Source of the DNA: Caldilineaceae bacterium
GTDB lineage: Bacteria; Chloroflexota; Anaerolineae; Caldilineales; Caldilineaceae
Assembly (NCBI GenBank): GCA_026989655.1
Contig: JALSIX010000138.1
Location: 1-40,946, forward strand
DNA: 40,946 bases
Direction of reading: 5' to 3'
Part shown: positions 4,633 to 28,667 of the stretch, piece by piece
How the letters are laid out: every line of letters starts with the position of its first letter
How positions within the stretch are numbered: the stretch's first letter is position 1
Notes under the pieces: generated by a model
Databases searched by the model: none
What the model saw: the letters and a program-made list of their open reading frames with translations, nothing else
Told to the model about the DNA's origin: nothing
Translations under genes and position numbers: made by a program

Positions 4633-5373
4633 ATGAAGCTGTCCGTGATCATGCCCGTCTACAACGAGGTGAACACCCTGGAGGAGATCGTCCGCCGGGT
4701 ACGAGCCGTGGACCTGACCGTGGACCCGGAGGGGCGCAACCCCCTCATCAACGGGCCCATCACCCTGGAGCGGGAGATCGTGATCGTGGACGACGGCTCC
4801 ACCGACGGCACCCGGGCCATCCTGAACCGGTGGCGGAAGGCCAACGCCCGGGACATCCACATCCTCTACCACGAGCGCAACGGCGGCAAGGGCGCGGCCC
4901 TGCGCACCGGCTTCCAACATGCCACCGGCGACATCTTCGTCATCCAGGACGCGGACCTGGAATACGACCCTCGGGACTACGTGAAACTCCTGGAACCCAT
5001 CCTGGAAGGGCGCACCGCGGTGGTCTACGGCAGCCGCTTCCTGGGCGGCCCCCGCTCCGCCATGAGCCTGGCCCATACTCTGGGCAACAAAGGGGTCACC
5101 TGGCTCACCAACCTCCTCTACGGCACCGTGCTGACCGACATGGAGACCTGCTACAAGTGCTTCCGCCGGGACGTCATCGCCGGCATGGAGCTCCGCAGCC
5201 ACCGCTTCGAGATCGAACCCGAGCTGACCGCCAAGATCCTCAAACGGGGCTACTCCATCTTCGAGGTCCCCATCAGCTACAACGGCCGGGAGTTCCACGA
5301 GGGCAAGAAGCTCACCTGGAGGGACGGCTTCAGCGCCATCTTCACCCTCATCCGCTACCGCCTCACCGACTGA
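4633..5373 (+). CDS. GT2 glycosyltransferase, dolichol/polyprenyl-phosphate mannosyltransferase-like
   Basis: The enzyme likely transfers a sugar from a nucleotide donor to a polyprenyl phosphate at the inner membrane face, providing lipid-linked sugar for membrane glycosyltransferases such as the next gene. The 246-residue GT-A fold shows MPVYNE at 7-12, VDDGSTDGT, GGKGAALRTG and the metal-binding QDADLEYDP. A C-terminal helical region carries FEIEPELTAKIL and FEVPISYNGR, as in DPM1-type enzymes. There are no C-terminal transmembrane helices, so this is the short soluble form. The ATG at 4633 has a GAAGAGG site upstream. It lies 35 nt after pdtaR and 22 nt before the next glycosyltransferase, so co-transcription is likely. 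Sugar and acceptor are inferred. Confidence 0.87.
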   Translation: MKLSVIMPVYNEVNTLEEIVRRVRAVDLTVDPEGRNPLINGPITLEREIVIVDDGSTDGTRAILNRWRKANARDIHILYHERNGGKGAALRTGFQHATGDIFVIQDADLEYDPRDYVKLLEPILEGRTAVVYGSRFLGGPRSAMSLAHTLGNKGVTWLTNLLYGTVLTDMETCYKCFRRDVIAGMELRSHRFEIEPELTAKILKRGYSIFEVPISYNGREFHEGKKLTWRDGFSAIFTLIRYRLTD

Positions 5374-21381: not shown

Positions 21382-22770
21382 TCACCGGGATGGGGGCATC
21401 GGGGCCGGTTCCAGGTGCACCAACACCTCCCCTGCATGGGGCAATCTCTGCCGAACGAGCTCCTGCAGCCGGGTGCTGAGCTCATGGGCCTCGGCCACCG
21501 AGAGGCCACCGTCCACCCGGACCTCCAGCACGATGAAGAGCCGACCTTCCACCTGGAAGATCTCCAGGTGGTGCGGTTCGTGGAGGCCGGGTACCCCGGC
21601 CGCGGCCTCGGCCACCACCCGCCGGATCCGGGCCTCCAGGCTCGGGCTCACCCGGGTGGAGGGCAGCACCTCGGACGGCGCGGCCTCGATGTGGGTGTAG
21701 ATGGAGGCCACCTCGGGGAGCCGCTCGCGGATGGTCTGTTCCAGCCGATCCACCCGTTCGTGGGCCTCGGCCAGCCGGGCGTGGGGATCCACGCCCACGT
21801 GGAGGTGGAGGCACAGGCGGCCACCCGCCTGCTGGGCCCAGAACTCGTGGAGGATCAGCCCGGCCTCGCTGGTGGCCAACTGCACCGCCTGGTACCGGTC
21901 CAGGGCGCTGGCCGGGCCCCGTTGGGCCTCCACGTGGACGGTCACGTCCTCCACCCCAGGCAGGGCCAGGAGCCGGCGGCGCACCTCGTCCGCGATGGCG
22001 TTGGCCCTCTGGGTGGGCAGCCGGGGATCGACCCGGACGTGGAGATCCACCGCGATGTGGTCCGGGGTGCCTCGGCTCCGGATCCGGTGGAAGCTCTCCA
22101 CACCGGGCACCTGGGACACCACCTGGGCAATGGCGCCGGGTGCCAAGGGCGCCTGGTCCACCAGAGGGGGCACGTTCTCCAGAAGGGTGTCCACGCCCAC
22201 CTTGGCGATGACCCCCGCGATGAGGAGCGCCACCGCGGGGTCTGCCCAACCGTATCCCAGGTGCACCGCGGCCAACCCCACCAGGACGGCCAGGCTCACA
22301 TAGAGGCTGGTGAGGGTGTGTCGGGCGTCCGCGATCAACACCTCACTGCCCAGGGCCCGGCCCTGGCGGAGCTCCCACCAGCCGGCCAGCCCCTGGATCG
22401 CCCCGCCCACCCCCAGCGCGGCCACGCTCCACCGGTTCACCGTGGGCAGCCGGGGATGGAGAAGACGGCCCACCGCGCTGGTGGCCAGCTCCCAGGCGAC
22501 CACGAAGAGCAGGGTGGCGATGAGGAGCGCGGCCAGGGTCTCGAACTTGCGGTGGCCGTAGGGGTGCTCCTCGTCGGGAGGGCGGCTGCTGACCCGGACC
22601 GCGGCCCACGCGATCCCGTTGGACAGGCCGTCGAAGAGGGTGTCCAGGCCGTCGGCCACCAGGGAGAGGGCTCCTGTCCACATCCCGACGCCCAGCTTGA
22701 CCCCCGTGGCCAGCAGGTTGAGCAGGAAGGTCAGGACGAGGACGTGCTGGATGCGTCGTGGGTCGCGCAT
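21382..22770 (-). CDS. Cation diffusion facilitator (CDF) metal transporter with three C-terminal ZT-dimer-like domains
   Basis: This 462-residue protein should export a divalent metal in exchange for protons. Six helices fill about residues 5-200. The TM2 metal site is D43-x3-D47 (in ADGLDTLFD), as in YiiP, and the cytoplasmic HPYGHRKFE is present. The TM5 site reads H151-x3-S155, where H-x3-D is usual. After the membrane domain come three successive alpha-beta units (about 213-282, 295-364 and 385-457), each resembling the ZT-dimer domain normally present once. That explains a length near 460 rather than 300. The ATG at 22770 has AGGA upstream; an in-frame ATG at 22797 is possible. The metal is not predictable. 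Confidence 0.85.
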   Translation of the reverse strand: MRDPRRIQHVLVLTFLLNLLATGVKLGVGMWTGALSLVADGLDTLFDGLSNGIAWAAVRVSSRPPDEEHPYGHRKFETLAALLIATLLFVVAWELATSAVGRLLHPRLPTVNRWSVAALGVGGAIQGLAGWWELRQGRALGSEVLIADARHTLTSLYVSLAVLVGLAAVHLGYGWADPAVALLIAGVIAKVGVDTLLENVPPLVDQAPLAPGAIAQVVSQVPGVESFHRIRSRGTPDHIAVDLHVRVDPRLPTQRANAIADEVRRRLLALPGVEDVTVHVEAQRGPASALDRYQAVQLATSEAGLILHEFWAQQAGGRLCLHLHVGVDPHARLAEAHERVDRLEQTIRERLPEVASIYTHIEAAPSEVLPSTRVSPSLEARIRRVVAEAAAGVPGLHEPHHLEIFQVEGRLFIVLEVRVDGGLSVAEAHELSTRLQELVRQRLPHAGEVLVHLEPAPMPPSR

Positions 22771-22849
22771 TCGGTCTGGTCCTGCACGGATGTCCATCGG
22801 CCCGGCAGGAGTTGCCCTCTTCGCATGGGAACCAAGGCCGCTCCGCGGT

Positions 22850-25585
22850 TCAGAGGGAGACCCCCAGAGGCCCTCGGGTCAGCTGGAAGTCCACATTGCC
22901 CATCTGCATGGCCCGAGGGCAATGGGCTCCGGCCAAGGTCTGGGCCAGAAGTGTGGCCAGGGTCTGGGGCCAGGTGGCCGGATCGCCGGCCAGCACACCG
23001 TCCATGTCCATCCCGTAACGCTGCGCCACATCCACCCGGTCGGTCACCTGGAGGACGGGCACCAGGGGATGGCCCTCCAGGGGATGAAGGCCCACGTAGG
23101 CCAGGATGAGATCCACCCCGGTGGCGGCCAGCCCCGTGACGACCTCCAGCCAGTCCTGGGTGGGGCTCGCCATCAGGTGGAGCCCCCGAGGGACGGCCGC
23201 ATCCTGGAGGGACTGGCCGTAGGCCAGGCTGGGCCCGTGGTCTCCCGGCCCCAGGGTCCACGCCACGAAGGCCGGACAGGCGAGCAGGACGTCCTTCTCC
23301 GGGAGGACCAGGGTGCCGCCGCTCTGGAGCAGCCCGGCCGCGAACCGGCCCAGAGCCTGGGCCGCCTCTGTGGAGACCGGCCCCGCGGCCAGGAGGCCCA
23401 CCCGCACGTCCGGGGGGCCGGCCTGGATCCGGGCCGGAGGCTGCTCCTGCACGATGCGGTCCCGGAACCACCCCTCGATCCTCTCCAAGACCCGGTGGAT
23501 CCCCCCGTCCAACTGGATGCTGGCCCAGCCGTACAGCTCGGGATCCAGGCCGGCCTGACCCAGCACATGGCGGATGTAGTCGTTGTGGGTCTTCTCGCAT
23601 CCATGCTCCAGGAAGAGGAGATGGGCCACCCGGGGATGGCGCGCATAGCCCAGCAGGGTGCGCAGGTAGAGATCCTCGGCCGGACCGCTGGAGACGCCGC
23701 ATCCCTCGGTGTGGACCAGGGCCACGAAGCGGGAGATGGCCCGATGGGTTCCCAGGCCCATCCGGGCAAGACGGGTGGCCGCCATGGCTGCGATCTGGCC
23801 CGCGCACAGGCTGGTAGGGAAGATGAGCCCCACCCGTTCGGCCGTCACCCCATAGGGGGTCGGGAAGGCGGGATAGCGGATCGGGAGATCCTGGGGAGGA
23901 TCCCCGGGCGGCAAGGCCTGGGGCAGGGGGTGGCCTCCCGGTGGAGGCTGCCGGAGGAGCGGCTCCAAGGGGACGGGCTCGTTGAAATGCCAGTCTCGCC
24001 AGAGCTGCACCTGGGCATGGCCGGCCCGCTCGCCGGCCGTGACCTCCCCCGAGGCCACCCGGACGGTCAGCTCCAGGGTCTCCCGGCCGAGGATCTCCAT
24101 GGGCGTGCCGTCCAGGTACCGACCGGCGTTCACGTCCATATCCTGCTGCAGGAGCTGGTAGCGACGGGTGGTGGTGACGATCTTGATGGTGGGGACGAAG
24201 GGAAAGTTGGTGATGGAGCCGTTGCCGGTGACGAAGAAGATCAGGTTGCAACCGGCCGCCACCTGGCCCGCGATGCTCTCCAGGTCGTTGCCCGGGCTGT
24301 CCATGAAGTAGAAGCCGGGCCTGTCCATCCGGGCCCCGTAGGGGATGACCCAGTCCAGGCGCACCTTTGGATCCTTCTTCGCGGCCGCGCCCAGGGACTT
24401 GAGCACGATGTTGTAGAGCCCTCGAAGCTTGTTGCCACCGGAGGGATTTCCCGCCGCGGACTGGCCATGCCATGCGGCCCACTCCTGGAAACGACCCAGG
24501 GTGGCCAGGAAGGCCTGGGCCGTTTCCAGGTCCCGCACCCGCTGGAGGAGATAGGGCTCGGCCCCGAGGAGCTCGTCCGTCTCGGCCAGGTTCGCCCGGC
24601 CGCCGTACCGGATCACCTCCCGGGCCACCCACCCGGCCAGGGGGTTGCCGGAGATGCCCGAGAACGCGTCGGAGCCCCCACACTGGAGTGCGATGGACAG
24701 ATGGGCCAGGGGCTCGGGGGTCCGCTCCACCGCGTTGGCCGCCTCCAGCCAGCTCCGCACCACCTCCTCAGCCCGATCCAATCCCCGAAGGAAGCCGTCC
24801 TCGATGGTGAAGAAGCCGTGCTGCACGTGGTCCAGCGGATAGCCCTGTTCCCGCATGTACGCGGCCAGGAGCCGATTGTTCACCGGTTCCACCCCGTAGT
24901 CCACGGCCAGGACGGCCGCCACGTTGGGGTGGACCATGAAGCCGGCCAGGGTCCGCAGGACGAGCTCCAGGTTGTTGGGATGGTGGTGGCCCCCTTCGGT
25001 GTGGGCCACGGCCACGATGCCGTCGATGTTCGGCCAGGCATCCGCGAGGCCCCGTAGCCGGGCCTCCAGTTGGCGCACGAACCCCCCGGTCCGGGAAGAG
25101 GTACCCAGGAGGACCACCATGTTGCGGGTCCCCACGCCCCGCCCTCCAGGACGCCGGTAGCCCAGGAAGGTGCGAGCGTCCGGGTGGGGAGGGACCTGGA
25201 CCCCGGGGCGGAAGGCGGCCGGATCCAGGGTGTAGGGGAGCCGGTAGTCCGCGAAGTTGGCGTCGGACGGCAGGTCCACATCCAGGTCGCGCACGGCCAG
25301 GGCCTCCAACACCGCGGCGTTGCGCACGTATTCCCCCGGAGCGATGGGCCGAAGAGCCCGGCCAAAGGGCAGTCCCCAGGAGAGCAGCGCCGCGCCGGCC
25401 GGAATGGGGGCCACCGCGAAACGGTGGCCTTCCAACACGGTGTGATCCAGGGTCAGGATCCGGCCGTGGAGCTGGATCCGGGTCCCCGCGGAAAGGGTCT
25501 GTACGGCCACGGCCACGTTGTCGCCGGGCCGAGGCAGCCGGGCCACCTGTGCAAAGGGCAGGGGCGATTCAGACATCGGACACAT
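22850..25585 (-). CDS. UxaA/GarD-family dehydratase with duplicated N-terminal-type domain
   Basis: This 911-residue relative of altronate and galactarate dehydratases would remove water from a sugar acid using a bound divalent metal. An N-terminal SAF domain (about 20-100) is followed by a UxaA core (145-530) with CGGSDAFSG (302-310), NPSGGNK, FMDSPGNDLESIAG, FFVTGNGS and PTIKIV. A further module (about 570-911) repeats the first half of the core. In the first copy three conserved cysteine positions are replaced (R165, G199, V232); the second copy has cysteines there (C594, C629 in HTEGCG, C663 in HGCEK). The start at 25585 lies about 42 nt after a TACAAT promoter; an ATG at 25576 is equally possible. 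Substrate unknown. Confidence 0.82.
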   Translation of the reverse strand: MCPMSESPLPFAQVARLPRPGDNVAVAVQTLSAGTRIQLHGRILTLDHTVLEGHRFAVAPIPAGAALLSWGLPFGRALRPIAPGEYVRNAAVLEALAVRDLDVDLPSDANFADYRLPYTLDPAAFRPGVQVPPHPDARTFLGYRRPGGRGVGTRNMVVLLGTSSRTGGFVRQLEARLRGLADAWPNIDGIVAVAHTEGGHHHPNNLELVLRTLAGFMVHPNVAAVLAVDYGVEPVNNRLLAAYMREQGYPLDHVQHGFFTIEDGFLRGLDRAEEVVRSWLEAANAVERTPEPLAHLSIALQCGGSDAFSGISGNPLAGWVAREVIRYGGRANLAETDELLGAEPYLLQRVRDLETAQAFLATLGRFQEWAAWHGQSAAGNPSGGNKLRGLYNIVLKSLGAAAKKDPKVRLDWVIPYGARMDRPGFYFMDSPGNDLESIAGQVAAGCNLIFFVTGNGSITNFPFVPTIKIVTTTRRYQLLQQDMDVNAGRYLDGTPMEILGRETLELTVRVASGEVTAGERAGHAQVQLWRDWHFNEPVPLEPLLRQPPPGGHPLPQALPPGDPPQDLPIRYPAFPTPYGVTAERVGLIFPTSLCAGQIAAMAATRLARMGLGTHRAISRFVALVHTEGCGVSSGPAEDLYLRTLLGYARHPRVAHLLFLEHGCEKTHNDYIRHVLGQAGLDPELYGWASIQLDGGIHRVLERIEGWFRDRIVQEQPPARIQAGPPDVRVGLLAAGPVSTEAAQALGRFAAGLLQSGGTLVLPEKDVLLACPAFVAWTLGPGDHGPSLAYGQSLQDAAVPRGLHLMASPTQDWLEVVTGLAATGVDLILAYVGLHPLEGHPLVPVLQVTDRVDVAQRYGMDMDGVLAGDPATWPQTLATLLAQTLAGAHCPRAMQMGNVDFQLTRGPLGVSL

Positions 25586-25633
25586 GGTCTGGAGCCAGGC
25601 GGTGGTCGAGCACGGGATGGTTGCGTCGCCCCC

Positions 25634-25639
25634 ATTGTA
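25634..25639 (-). promoter_or_regulatory. Extended -10 promoter of the uxaA-like gene
   Basis: On the minus strand the -10 box TACAAT is preceded by TGG (TG-n extended -10). No good -35 box exists at 17-18 nt. Transcription would start near 25627. Confidence 0.5.
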
Positions 25640-25825
25640 CCATATTCCCATCCCCTCGCCCTGGCCCCACCGGACATTCAGTTTCCGAACGCCCCGCGCC
25701 CGGCGGTTTGCCGGGGCCACCTCGAGACCCTGGCCCCAAGGCGTTAAGTCAAATCGCCTAGGCCGGCCTGCCCCCAGAGGCCATTTTGGTACTACAGGGC
25801 CAGGGAAAATCGCGCAGCCATCGTC

Positions 25826-25831
25826 TATAGT
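25826..25831 (+). promoter_or_regulatory. Candidate -10 box of the S8 protease gene
   Basis: TATAGT lies in an AT-rich patch 67 nt before the ATG at 25899. The -35 region is poor, so an activator may be needed. Confidence 0.4.
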
Positions 25832-25898
25832 TAAGGTCACTGGGGTACAGCTCCCTTACATGGTGGTCTCCCACCGGCAGACATCGCGGAGGGCTTCC

Positions 25899-28667
25899 AT
25901 GATCGCTCACCTCTACCGCCTGACACTGGCCCTGGCCCTGCTCGTGGCTGGGACCATCCCCGGCCGCTCGGTCCCAGGGCCCGAGGCGTCCACCGTGGCC
26001 TCCCAGTCGACCTCCCAGCCCGTGGCGGTCATCGTCCAGGCCGTGGACCCGGCCACCGCGGCCCGTCTCGTGGAGGAGGTCGGCGGCCGGGTGACCCACG
26101 AGCTGCCCATCATCCAGGCGGTGGGGGCCCAGCTGACCCCGGAACAGCGGGCCCGTCTGGCCCGGTGGGAGGGGATCCGCATCTACGAGAACCGGACGGC
26201 CCGGATATCGGATGTGGACGCGGTGGAGGTGTTGGTGGCCCGCGGCCCTGGAGGCACGATCTGGGCCTACTGGGATCGAGAGGAGCTTCCCGAGGACGAG
26301 GAGATGGACGACGAGGGCTGGTACCGGCTGGGCTACGATGCCAGCCGCTGGCCCCGGGGCACCGGCAAGTTCGGGTACGGCCAGGGCGATGAGGACACCC
26401 CCCTGGATCCTGGCCCGCGCAAGGAGCCTCTCATCACCGCCTACTTCCGCACCACCTTCACCGTGGACCGCCCGGGACAGTTCCGCGCGCTGGAGGCCAC
26501 CTTCCTGGTGGACGACGGCATCGTCCTCTACCTGAACGGGCGGGAGGTGTTCCGGGACAATCTGCCGAGGGGCGAGGTGGAGCCGGACACCCTGGCCCGG
26601 GAGGCCAGGGATCACTCCCTCCAGAAGATCGAGCTGGACCCGGCCCTGTTGATCCCCGGCACCAACATCATCGCCGCGGAGGTCCATCGGGGGAAGGGCC
26701 GCGAGCCCCAGATCAGCTTCGATCTGGAGCTGGCGGGCTACCGGGTGGAGTCGGACTACATCCCCGAGGTCCGGGACATGGTGGCCGCGGTGAGCTACCG
26801 CAACGACGACGGCAACCAGGCCTGGCTGGGGCCCTGGCAGGAGATCGGCGAGGAGGACGGCCCGGCCGAGGGGGCTGTGGGTGTCCGGAGTCACCGAGGG
26901 GACCACGGCACCCTGGTCTTTCGGCTGGCCGAGGGCAAGGGTCTCCAGCGAGCCGTGGACCTGAGCCTGGCCCGGCACGCGCGGCTCCGGTTCAAGTACC
27001 AGCGGGAGGGCTTCGAGAGTGCCCAGGACGCGGTCACCGTCCAGATCTCCGGAGACGGTGGGCGGAGCTGGAAGACCCTGGACGTGCTGGCCGGGCCGGC
27101 CCACGACAGGCTGTTCCAGACAGCCGAATACGACATCAGCCCCTGGGTCGGCGGTCCGGCCGTGGTCCGGTTCCTGAGCTCCGAATCCATCCAGGAAGAG
27201 ACCCGTATCGCCCTCAAGGATGTCCAGATCCGGTACACCAACGCCCGGGAAACCGTCTACCCAGACCTCATCCAGGCCACATGGGCCCACAGGGCAGGCA
27301 TCGACGGCCAGGAGGTGGGGGTCGCGGTGGTGGACACGGGCATCTGGGCCCACCCGGCCCTCTACTACCGGCCCGACAGCACGCCCCGAGGACTGGTGGA
27401 GTACGACGCGGTCTTCGACCAGCTCCGGGTCATCGACGGGCCGGGCTACAACTCCGACGAGAACGGTCACGGCACCCACATAGCCAGTATCCTGGCCAGC
27501 AGCCGCCTGGCCGAGGGCACCCTCAACGGCGTGGCTCCAGGCGTCCGGATCATCTCGGTCAAGGCCTTCGACGCGTCGGGCATGGCCACCTACATGGACG
27601 TGATCCGGGGCATCGGCTGGGCCGTGGCCAACAAGGACCGGTACAACATCCGGGTCCTCAACCTCTCCTTCAGCGCCCCGCCCCAGTCCTTCTACTGGGA
27701 CGATCCGCTGAACCAGGCCGTCATGCGGGCCTGGCAGGCCGGCATTGTGGTGGTGGCCGCGGCCGGCAACCGGGGCCCGGATCCCATGACCATTGGCGTG
27801 CCCGGCAACGTGCCCTACGTGATCACCGTGGGCGCCATCACCGACAACTACACCCCGGACGACCCCAGCGACGACTACGTGACCCCTTTCTCCTCCGCGG
27901 GGCCCACCTATGAGGGCTTCGTCAAGCCCGACGTGGTGGCCCCCGGTGCCCACATGCTGGGCCTGGCCGCGGCCCAGCACCGCCTGGCGTTGGAACACCC
28001 GGACGCGTTCGACGGCCTGGACTACTTCCAGATGGCCGGCACCTCCCAGGCCACCGCGGTGGTGAGCGGCATCGCCGCGCTGCTCCTCCAGGCCGAACCC
28101 GGGCTCACCCCCGACGATGTGAAGTGCCGGCTCATGGCCACGGCCCGGGCCGCCCTGGACGGCGAAGGGGAGCTGGCCTTCTCCATCTTCCAACAGGGGG
28201 CCGGCCTGGTGGATGCCTGGGCAGCCCTCGCGGACACCACCTCGGGCTGCGCCAACAAGGGCCTGGACGTGACCAAGGATCTGAAGGGCATCGAACACTA
28301 CGGCGGCCCGGTACGACAGGACGAGAAGGGACGCTTCTACCTGGTCGAAGGGCCTGAACATGCCTGGTCCGGGGGTTTCACCTGGAGCGGCGGCTACACC
28401 TGGTCCGGAGGCTTCACCTGGAGCGGTGGGTTCACCTGGTCGGGCGGCTACACCTGGTCCGGGGGCTTCACCTGGTCGGACGGCTACACCTGGTCCGAAG
28501 GCTTCACCTGGAGCGGTGGCGCCTCCATTCCCCTGAGCCAGCCCTTGGGCGGTCTGGGGGAATGGCTGGCCGAGGAGCCCTATCTGGCGCCAGGTCAGAT
28601 CCGGGTGTTCCGCGACGCGGTCCGCTCTCCAGCGTCCCAGCTCTTCCTGCCCATAGTCGCCCGCTGA
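25899..28667 (+). CDS. Secreted multidomain S8 (subtilisin-like) protease with WSGG(F/Y)T repeats
   Basis: This 922-residue exported serine protease has a signal peptide (about 1-23) and an I9-like inhibitor propeptide (about 38-105). Two predicted beta-sandwich segments (115-278 and 290-450) precede the catalytic domain (about 470-790). The triad is D479 (VVDTG), H524 (NGHGTH) and S716 (AGTSQAT), with oxyanion N624. After the catalytic domain come eight tandem copies plus one degenerate copy of a six-residue WSGG(F/Y)T unit. A short tail ends in LFLPIVAR. Domains between propeptide and catalytic core are uncommon in subtilases. Its likely role is extracellular protein degradation or processing of surface proteins. 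The ATG at 25899 starts the only signal peptide in frame. Confidence 0.88.
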   Translation: MIAHLYRLTLALALLVAGTIPGRSVPGPEASTVASQSTSQPVAVIVQAVDPATAARLVEEVGGRVTHELPIIQAVGAQLTPEQRARLARWEGIRIYENRTARISDVDAVEVLVARGPGGTIWAYWDREELPEDEEMDDEGWYRLGYDASRWPRGTGKFGYGQGDEDTPLDPGPRKEPLITAYFRTTFTVDRPGQFRALEATFLVDDGIVLYLNGREVFRDNLPRGEVEPDTLAREARDHSLQKIELDPALLIPGTNIIAAEVHRGKGREPQISFDLELAGYRVESDYIPEVRDMVAAVSYRNDDGNQAWLGPWQEIGEEDGPAEGAVGVRSHRGDHGTLVFRLAEGKGLQRAVDLSLARHARLRFKYQREGFESAQDAVTVQISGDGGRSWKTLDVLAGPAHDRLFQTAEYDISPWVGGPAVVRFLSSESIQEETRIALKDVQIRYTNARETVYPDLIQATWAHRAGIDGQEVGVAVVDTGIWAHPALYYRPDSTPRGLVEYDAVFDQLRVIDGPGYNSDENGHGTHIASILASSRLAEGTLNGVAPGVRIISVKAFDASGMATYMDVIRGIGWAVANKDRYNIRVLNLSFSAPPQSFYWDDPLNQAVMRAWQAGIVVVAAAGNRGPDPMTIGVPGNVPYVITVGAITDNYTPDDPSDDYVTPFSSAGPTYEGFVKPDVVAPGAHMLGLAAAQHRLALEHPDAFDGLDYFQMAGTSQATAVVSGIAALLLQAEPGLTPDDVKCRLMATARAALDGEGELAFSIFQQGAGLVDAWAALADTTSGCANKGLDVTKDLKGIEHYGGPVRQDEKGRFYLVEGPEHAWSGGFTWSGGYTWSGGFTWSGGFTWSGGYTWSGGFTWSDGYTWSEGFTWSGGASIPLSQPLGGLGEWLAEEPYLAPGQIRVFRDAVRSPASQLFLPIVAR
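28365..28526 (+). repeat. Tandem 18-bp repeat encoding WSGG(F/Y)T, nine units
   Basis: Nine consecutive in-frame 18-bp units lie inside the S8 protease gene. Units 1-6 read WSGGFT or WSGGYT, unit 7 WSDGYT, unit 8 WSEGFT, and unit 9 degenerates to WSGGAS. Synonymous codons vary between units (AGC, TCC and TCG for serine), so selection on the peptide, not only recent DNA slippage, has kept the pattern. Confidence 0.95.

Follow-up and report, generated by a model that had tools for sequence, protein, structure and literature searches.

A double-core protein of the UxaA/GarD superfamily divides four conserved cysteines between its two halves, in a manner that suggests a fused dimer with one shared metal site

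The DNA analyzed here, a stretch of 40,946 nucleotides from a Caldilineaceae bacterium (contig JALSIX010000138.1; hereafter referred to as the window), encodes a 911-residue protein, P0001, in which two dehydratase cores of the UxaA/GarD superfamily follow one another in a single reading frame. The four cysteines characteristic of the superfamily are distributed over the two cores, with C302 in the C domain of the first core (copy A) and C594, C629 and C663 in the second domain of the appended core (copy B). We consider it probable that P0001 is a fused pseudo-dimer that has kept one inter-protomer site, formed by the copy A C domain and the copy B second domain, and has let the other decay. 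The features on which this reading is built are as follows.

22850–25585, minus strand: gene for the double-core UxaA/GarD-superfamily dehydratase P0001, 911 residues (translation, Pfam, AlphaFold2 model)
25316–25522, minus strand: SAF domain, residues 22–90 (Pfam PF08666, E = 1.5e-6; VIA Z 14.4 to 3k3s)
24734–25162, minus strand: copy A second domain, residues 142–284, with GTRN and HTEG kept and the three cysteines absent (Pfam PF04295)
24890–25093, minus strand: copy A positions R165 (25091–25093), G199 (24989–24991) and V232 (24890–24892), which are cysteines in single-copy enzymes
23990–24706, minus strand: copy A C domain, residues 294–532, with CGGSD, GNPSGGNK and the full conserved set (Pfam PF20629, 268.5 bits for this stretch)
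24680–24682, minus strand: C302 of CGGSD, the fourth proposed metal ligand, corresponding to C288 of GarD and C264 of UxaA (Cys in 97/97)
23510–23827, minus strand: copy B second domain, residues about 587–692 (Pfam PF04295, E = 2e-13)
23804–23806, minus strand: C594, in TSLC (Cys in 97/97)
23699–23701, minus strand: C629, in HTEGC (Cys in 97/97)
23597–23599, minus strand: C663, in HGCEK (Cys in 97/97)
22850–23410, minus strand: copy B C domain, residues about 726–911, shortened and without CGGSD and GGNK (PF20629)
21382–22797, minus strand: adjacent cation diffusion facilitator (CDF) gene, 52 bp downstream (NCBIfam TIGR01297)

P0001 thus has the order SAF, core A (second and C domains) and core B (second and shortened C domains), and Pfam finds both GD_AH_second and GD_AH_C twice in the single frame. 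The scores exceed the curated cut-offs that define the domains of the UxaA/GarD superfamily (COG2721): 29.1 bits against 21 for SAF (PF08666), 144.1 against 27.3 for GD_AH_second (PF04295) and 291 against 26.8 for GD_AH_C (PF20629). A preliminary description of the gene had proposed that a UxaA N-terminal-type module is duplicated. The second domain does occur twice, but the duplication extends to the whole core: when the C-terminal 351 residues were searched in isolation, they exceeded the curated cut-offs of both UxaA/GarD profiles, GD_AH_second (E = 2e-13) and GD_AH_C (E = 9e-7). The C domain of copy B aligns only with positions 127–191 of the 242-position PF20629 profile; it shows changes in the stretch that would carry CGGSD and a deletion of the GGNK loop. 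Among 54 homologs of the B half, GD_AH_second was found in all and GD_AH_C in 53. P0001 is the sole GD_AH_C protein of its own genome. A frame or assembly artifact was ruled out as its source, as the same architecture recurs in dozens of genomes and on finished plasmids.

The preliminary description had also pointed to a reciprocal loss and retention of cysteines. The translation bears out each residue that it named, R165, G199 (HTEGGH) and V232 (YGVEP) in the first copy and C594, C629 (HTEGCG) and C663 (HGCEK) in the second, as well as the two stretches beginning with LRTL that it aligned. In the 17 single-copy enzymes first compared, including E. coli UxaA and GarD, all four cysteines lie within one core, so that they are indeed conserved in family members; two further single cores (L162 and L163) have the four as well. 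P0001 carries the COG2721 set of four only across its two cores, neither of which has all of them. Genome searches recovered this architecture in 97 distinct proteins from about eight phyla. Every one of these (97/97) has cysteine at each of the positions 302, 594, 629 and 663, and none (0/97) has cysteine at copy A position 165, 199 or 232. The contigs had been scanned with six peptide patterns, two of which include C594 and C663, and the count was therefore repeated on proteins found by whole-protein searches without such patterns; the cysteine pattern was the same in all 36 rows (35 distinct, the window's own protein occurring twice).

The four superfamily cysteines are conserved except in sulfolactate sulfo-lyase and correspond to Cys134, Cys173, Cys208 and Cys276 of D-arabinonate dehydratase (Watanabe et al. 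2019, PMC6336799). The same study tested Cys-to-Ser mutants and proposed the four residues as ligands of ferric iron; the metal assignment is tentative, as the EPR data leave a choice between an Fe-S cluster and mononuclear iron (Watanabe et al. 2019, PMC6336799). By analogy, P0001 is a putative iron-dependent, cysteine-ligated dehydratase. In the reading favored here, its four cysteines would bind one metal center located between the two halves.

To see what else has been partitioned, we considered the positions that are conserved in single-copy enzymes. In the C domain, 37 of them are retained only in copy A, eight in both copies and none only in copy B. In the second domain, ten are retained only in copy A, including GTRN, which copy B has lost, and eight only in copy B, these being the three cysteines, the E and G beside the third cysteine, and Q/GG. 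No domain of the protein is less conserved than the C domain of copy B, where 8% of the positions reach ≥97% conservation. The losses thus fall on the cysteines of the copy A second domain and on the copy B C domain, the parts that a single inter-protomer site would need. The suggestion that the first copy may be a structural remnant probably does not hold for its second domain, which keeps HTEG in 97/97 proteins along with GTRN and probably still shapes the copy A site. Residue coupling, calculated as corrected mutual information over the 97 sequences (effective number about 39), showed no enrichment of near pairs and was uninformative.

These patterns can be accommodated by the following scheme. 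The ancestor would have been a homodimer of an iron-type sugar-acid dehydratase, whose two protomers became fused head to tail. A conventional homodimer of this kind would have two equivalent sites, each made of three second-domain cysteines from one protomer and the CGGSD cysteine and substrate-binding loops from its partner. In the fusion, the site kept would combine the copy A C domain (C302, GNPSGGNK and GND) with the copy B second domain (C594, C629 and C663), while the site made of the copy A second domain and the copy B C domain would have decayed. The loss of the cysteines from the former and of CGGSD and GGNK from the latter would destroy exactly one inter-protomer site and leave the other whole. 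If the sites lay within one protomer, no complete site would be left in P0001, which is at odds with the 97/97 conservation. The reciprocal loss pattern is therefore itself evidence for an inter-protomer site, and we predict from it that ordinary GarD/UxaA enzymes likewise have their metal site between subunits.

The preliminary description had proposed a division of labor in which catalysis is rebuilt from the C-terminal core of the first copy and the appended module. This is the best-supported reading, with the shared metal site as its inferred element, since the 1+3 split of the cysteines is invariant, the appended half has the fold of a second core, and the same split occurs in haloarchaea (see below). 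The appended part does carry the cysteine-bearing module, as proposed, but it is more than one module, being a second core that includes a degenerate C domain. Genes for metal handling near some relatives (FeoB, an MntR/DtxR-like regulator and Nramp) also count in favor of this reading. With one site kept across the halves, copy B would be indispensable as metal donor, and activity is expected from neither half by itself; either half cloned alone is thus predicted to yield an inactive protein.

Structure prediction gave results compatible with this arrangement. The full-length AlphaFold2 model, built with 79 relatives, had a pLDDT of 86.7 and a pTM of 0.87, the latter giving the two predicted halves a defined packing. 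Residues 12–534 of the model superpose on the whole chain of E. coli GarD (6U7L; VIA Z 44, 446/460 residues, 3.0 Å), and core B folded alone (pLDDT 90.0, pTM 0.91) superposes on residues 110–523 of the same structure (Z 26.3, 302 residues, 3.9 Å). Both copies thus have the GarD fold of COG2721; VIA matches ranked below the SAF fragments (3k3s and 3laz), with Z of about 7–8, were counted as background. As both halves are protomer-like, the whole of P0001 resembles a fused dimer. Model confidence dips at the loops with HTEG, CGGSD, GNPSGGN, HTEGCG and GCEK, which is suggestive of an unfilled metal or substrate site but proves nothing. Among the PDB sequence matches, the superfamily is represented by one full-length solved structure. 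Should the GarD site lie within one chain, the model would place C302 beside the copy A module that lacks the cysteines, a counterpoint to the shared site.

In haloarchaea, the same partition occurs in trans, in plasmid-borne three-gene operons of the order core1-SAF-core2; we found 16 records with a core2 relative and read nine of them. Core1 is without the three cysteines in all nine, but with both ECGGS and P(S/T)PGN; core2, in all nine, has ICSH, HGC and LGCE and neither of these two core1 motifs. These operons (from Haladaptatus, Natrinema, Haloterrigena and others) share the four-position partition with P0001, but in separate genes. In trees, copy A clusters with SAF-fused enzymes (support 98/94), away from core1. 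Forcing copy A and core1 into one clade was disfavored both for the whole core (delta lnL 39, p-AU 0.036) and for the C domain alone, which contains none of the three cysteines (delta lnL 27, p-AU 0.027), with p-values not far below 0.05 and with several long branches in the trees. Within the plasmid set, the outside relative closest to core1 is a Metabacillus single core (47% identity), which has all four cysteines. The trees suggest that the cysteine-less partners, copy A and core1, arose separately; copy B and core2 may have a common origin (92/95, on long branches). In a broader reading, towards which we lean with less confidence than for P0001 itself, the metal site lies between protomers in the whole UxaA/GarD superfamily, and a symmetric dimer has turned at least twice into an asymmetric one with one site and a dedicated metal-donating partner, the two cases being the fused bacterial protein and the haloarchaeal heteromer. 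It would be a natural example of symmetric-to-asymmetric dimer evolution, in cis and in trans. For a superfamily whose metal center is unsettled, it also amounts to a prediction from sequence of a site that spans two subunits, with three cysteines on one and one on the other. Beside the nine operons read (L161 and L166–L173) lie genes that include FAH hydrolases, Gfo/Idh oxidoreductases, mandelate racemase-family enzymes and sugar transporters.

The explanation most different from a shared site is that copy A alone is an enzyme without the three cysteines, like SuyB, and that copy B is a separate metal-binding domain with a structural, storage or regulatory role. The cysteine-less copy A half might work by itself in the manner of SuyB-type single cores: cores of this kind lacking the three cysteines do exist, two of three lying beside sulfite/sulfate exporters, the sulfo-lyase is the stated exception to the four-cysteine rule (PMC6336799), and copy A keeps its full C domain, GTRN and HTEG. 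SuyB, however, has KCGES in place of CGGSD and is placed apart from copy A in the tree. The cysteine motifs of copy B are invariant and in the superfamily register, which a free-standing structural domain would not need, and a cysteine-bearing partner is likewise kept in the haloarchaeal operons; we judge this explanation improbable. The proposal of two independent functional sites, one in each core (A2+A3 and B2+B3), with altered chemistry or substrates, draws on the retention of HTEG and GTRN in the copy A second domain and on the core fold of both halves. It has to contend with a copy B C domain that has neither CGGSD nor the GGNK loop, has lost 37 of the 45 positions retained by copy A, retains none that copy A lacks and, as noted above, is the least conserved part of the protein, and we give it hardly any credence.

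A further variant concerns the metal center rather than its location. The three cysteines of copy B alone might hold a [4Fe-4S] cluster with an open, aconitase-like iron, with C302 in a catalytic or structural role and the site still shared. Three cysteines within one domain suit a three-ligand cluster, and the published EPR spectra contain a species near g = 2 that was compared with [3Fe-4S], in addition to a rubredoxin-like signal at g = 4.4 (PMC6336799). The same paper argues against [3Fe-4S], whose reduced form should be EPR-silent, and the conserved set comprises four cysteines including that of CGGSD. We regard the variant as unlikely, if less so than the two preceding explanations, and prefer a fused pseudo-dimer with all four cysteines at one inter-protomer center.

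P0001 differs from each known relative in definable ways. GarD, the D-galactarate dehydratase of E. coli, shares the SAF-second-C order, its whole chain being spanned by copy A, and the motifs CGGSD, GNK and HxxGC, but it has a single core with all four cysteines in one chain (27% identity), and P0001 scores 205.1 bits against the 730.85 required by the galactarate dehydratase equivalog TIGR03248. UxaA and the SAF-fused proteins of 500–540 residues named altronate dehydratase family have the same Pfam domains and group with copy A; unlike P0001, they have four cysteines in one core and no copy B. SuyAB, the (2R)-sulfolactate sulfo-lyase, belongs to the same superfamily and consists of a SAF subunit and a core subunit of a single type without the three cysteines; P0001 departs from SuyB in the QCGGSD of copy A and in the presence of a cysteine-bearing second core. 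A Variovorax SAF-core pair (L159:2572–3732) has a single core that lacks the three cysteines at the usual places, keeps ECGGS and groups with SuyB; its neighbors are tricarboxylate-transporter and Ldh-type genes, not a sulfite exporter. The double architecture and cysteine partition of P0001 are found in RefSeq proteins of about 880–910 residues on Rubrobacter and Pantoea soli plasmids, which owe the name UxaA family hydrolase to automatic annotation only. Proteins of about 900 residues with this name, in Caldilineaceae, Paenibacillus and other bacteria, should not take their annotation from GarD or UxaA by analogy. Our literature search, which mostly did not reach subscription papers, returned no description of the double-core or haloarchaeal split forms.

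Double-core proteins occur in Chloroflexota (mainly Caldilineaceae), Paenibacillus, Alicyclobacillus, Latescibacterota, Rubrobacter, Trueperaceae, Gemmatimonadota, Acidobacteriota and on a Pantoea soli plasmid. Nearly all Chloroflexota matches come from the window's own family, and elsewhere four of 400 sampled genomes matched, the window's own genome not being counted. In the second-domain tree, the A copies, the B copies and the single-copy enzymes form three separate supported groups, and the simplest reading is a single ancient duplication or fusion that later spread to about eight phyla. An apparent split form in genome G002, with two overlapping open reading frames (L032/L123), was disregarded, a frameshift in the draft genome being the probable cause. 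One genome of the window's family contains only a copy B fragment with an in-frame TGA (L124; G009:C5, near 4727–5248), perhaps a decaying copy.

Neighboring genes give some indication of the substrate. An aldo/keto reductase gene adjoins the double-core gene at 25 loci, mainly in Paenibacillus and Trueperaceae, and a gene for an L-fucono-1,5-lactonase-like amidohydrolase lies near 13 loci (249.5 bits, where the cut-off is 400). A nearby FAH-family hydrolase has 2,4-didehydro-3-deoxy-L-rhamnonate hydrolase as its best match, below the cut-off, and SDR and LutB/LutC genes also occur. Taken together, these neighbors fit a non-phosphorylative L-fucose route that would end in pyruvate and lactate. 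Genes of that route for lactonase, 2-keto-3-deoxyaldonate dehydrogenase and FAH hydrolase accompany the dehydratase in Paenibacillus and partly in others. From the Paenibacillus operons we infer, less firmly than the reading of the site, that the substrate of P0001 could be L-fuconate or another, similar aldonic acid. No L-fucose-pathway genes lie beside the window gene, where only the CDF transporter was found; a distant lactonase homolog lies beside xylose genes elsewhere in the genome, and FAH homologs are on other contigs. A widely conserved metal-efflux neighbor was considered and rejected, as the flanks of the other loci contain no homolog of the window's CDF gene.

Several other neighbors recur. 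In many Caldilineaceae (L034–L051, e.g., L046:7072–8445), a sulfatase gene begins about 28 bp after the double-core gene and is followed by genes for a SIS-domain sugar isomerase and a Met synthase-like protein, perhaps for the breakdown of sulfated sugars. In genomes of Latescibacterota and Gemmatimonadota, a divergent feoB gene lies about 1 kb upstream (L057, L059, L067, L072, L075, L076 and L110), and a gene for an MntR/DtxR-like regulator also occurs; the latter was seen beside the double-core gene at eight loci. On a Rubrobacter plasmid, two Nramp genes (L114:7554–8978 and L114:12908–14377) lie on either side of the double-core gene and its GntR regulator. In the window itself, the dehydratase gene has beside it, on the opposite strand (25518–28667), an S8-type serine protease gene whose product has nine successive imperfect TWSGG(F/Y) repeats in its C-terminal part.
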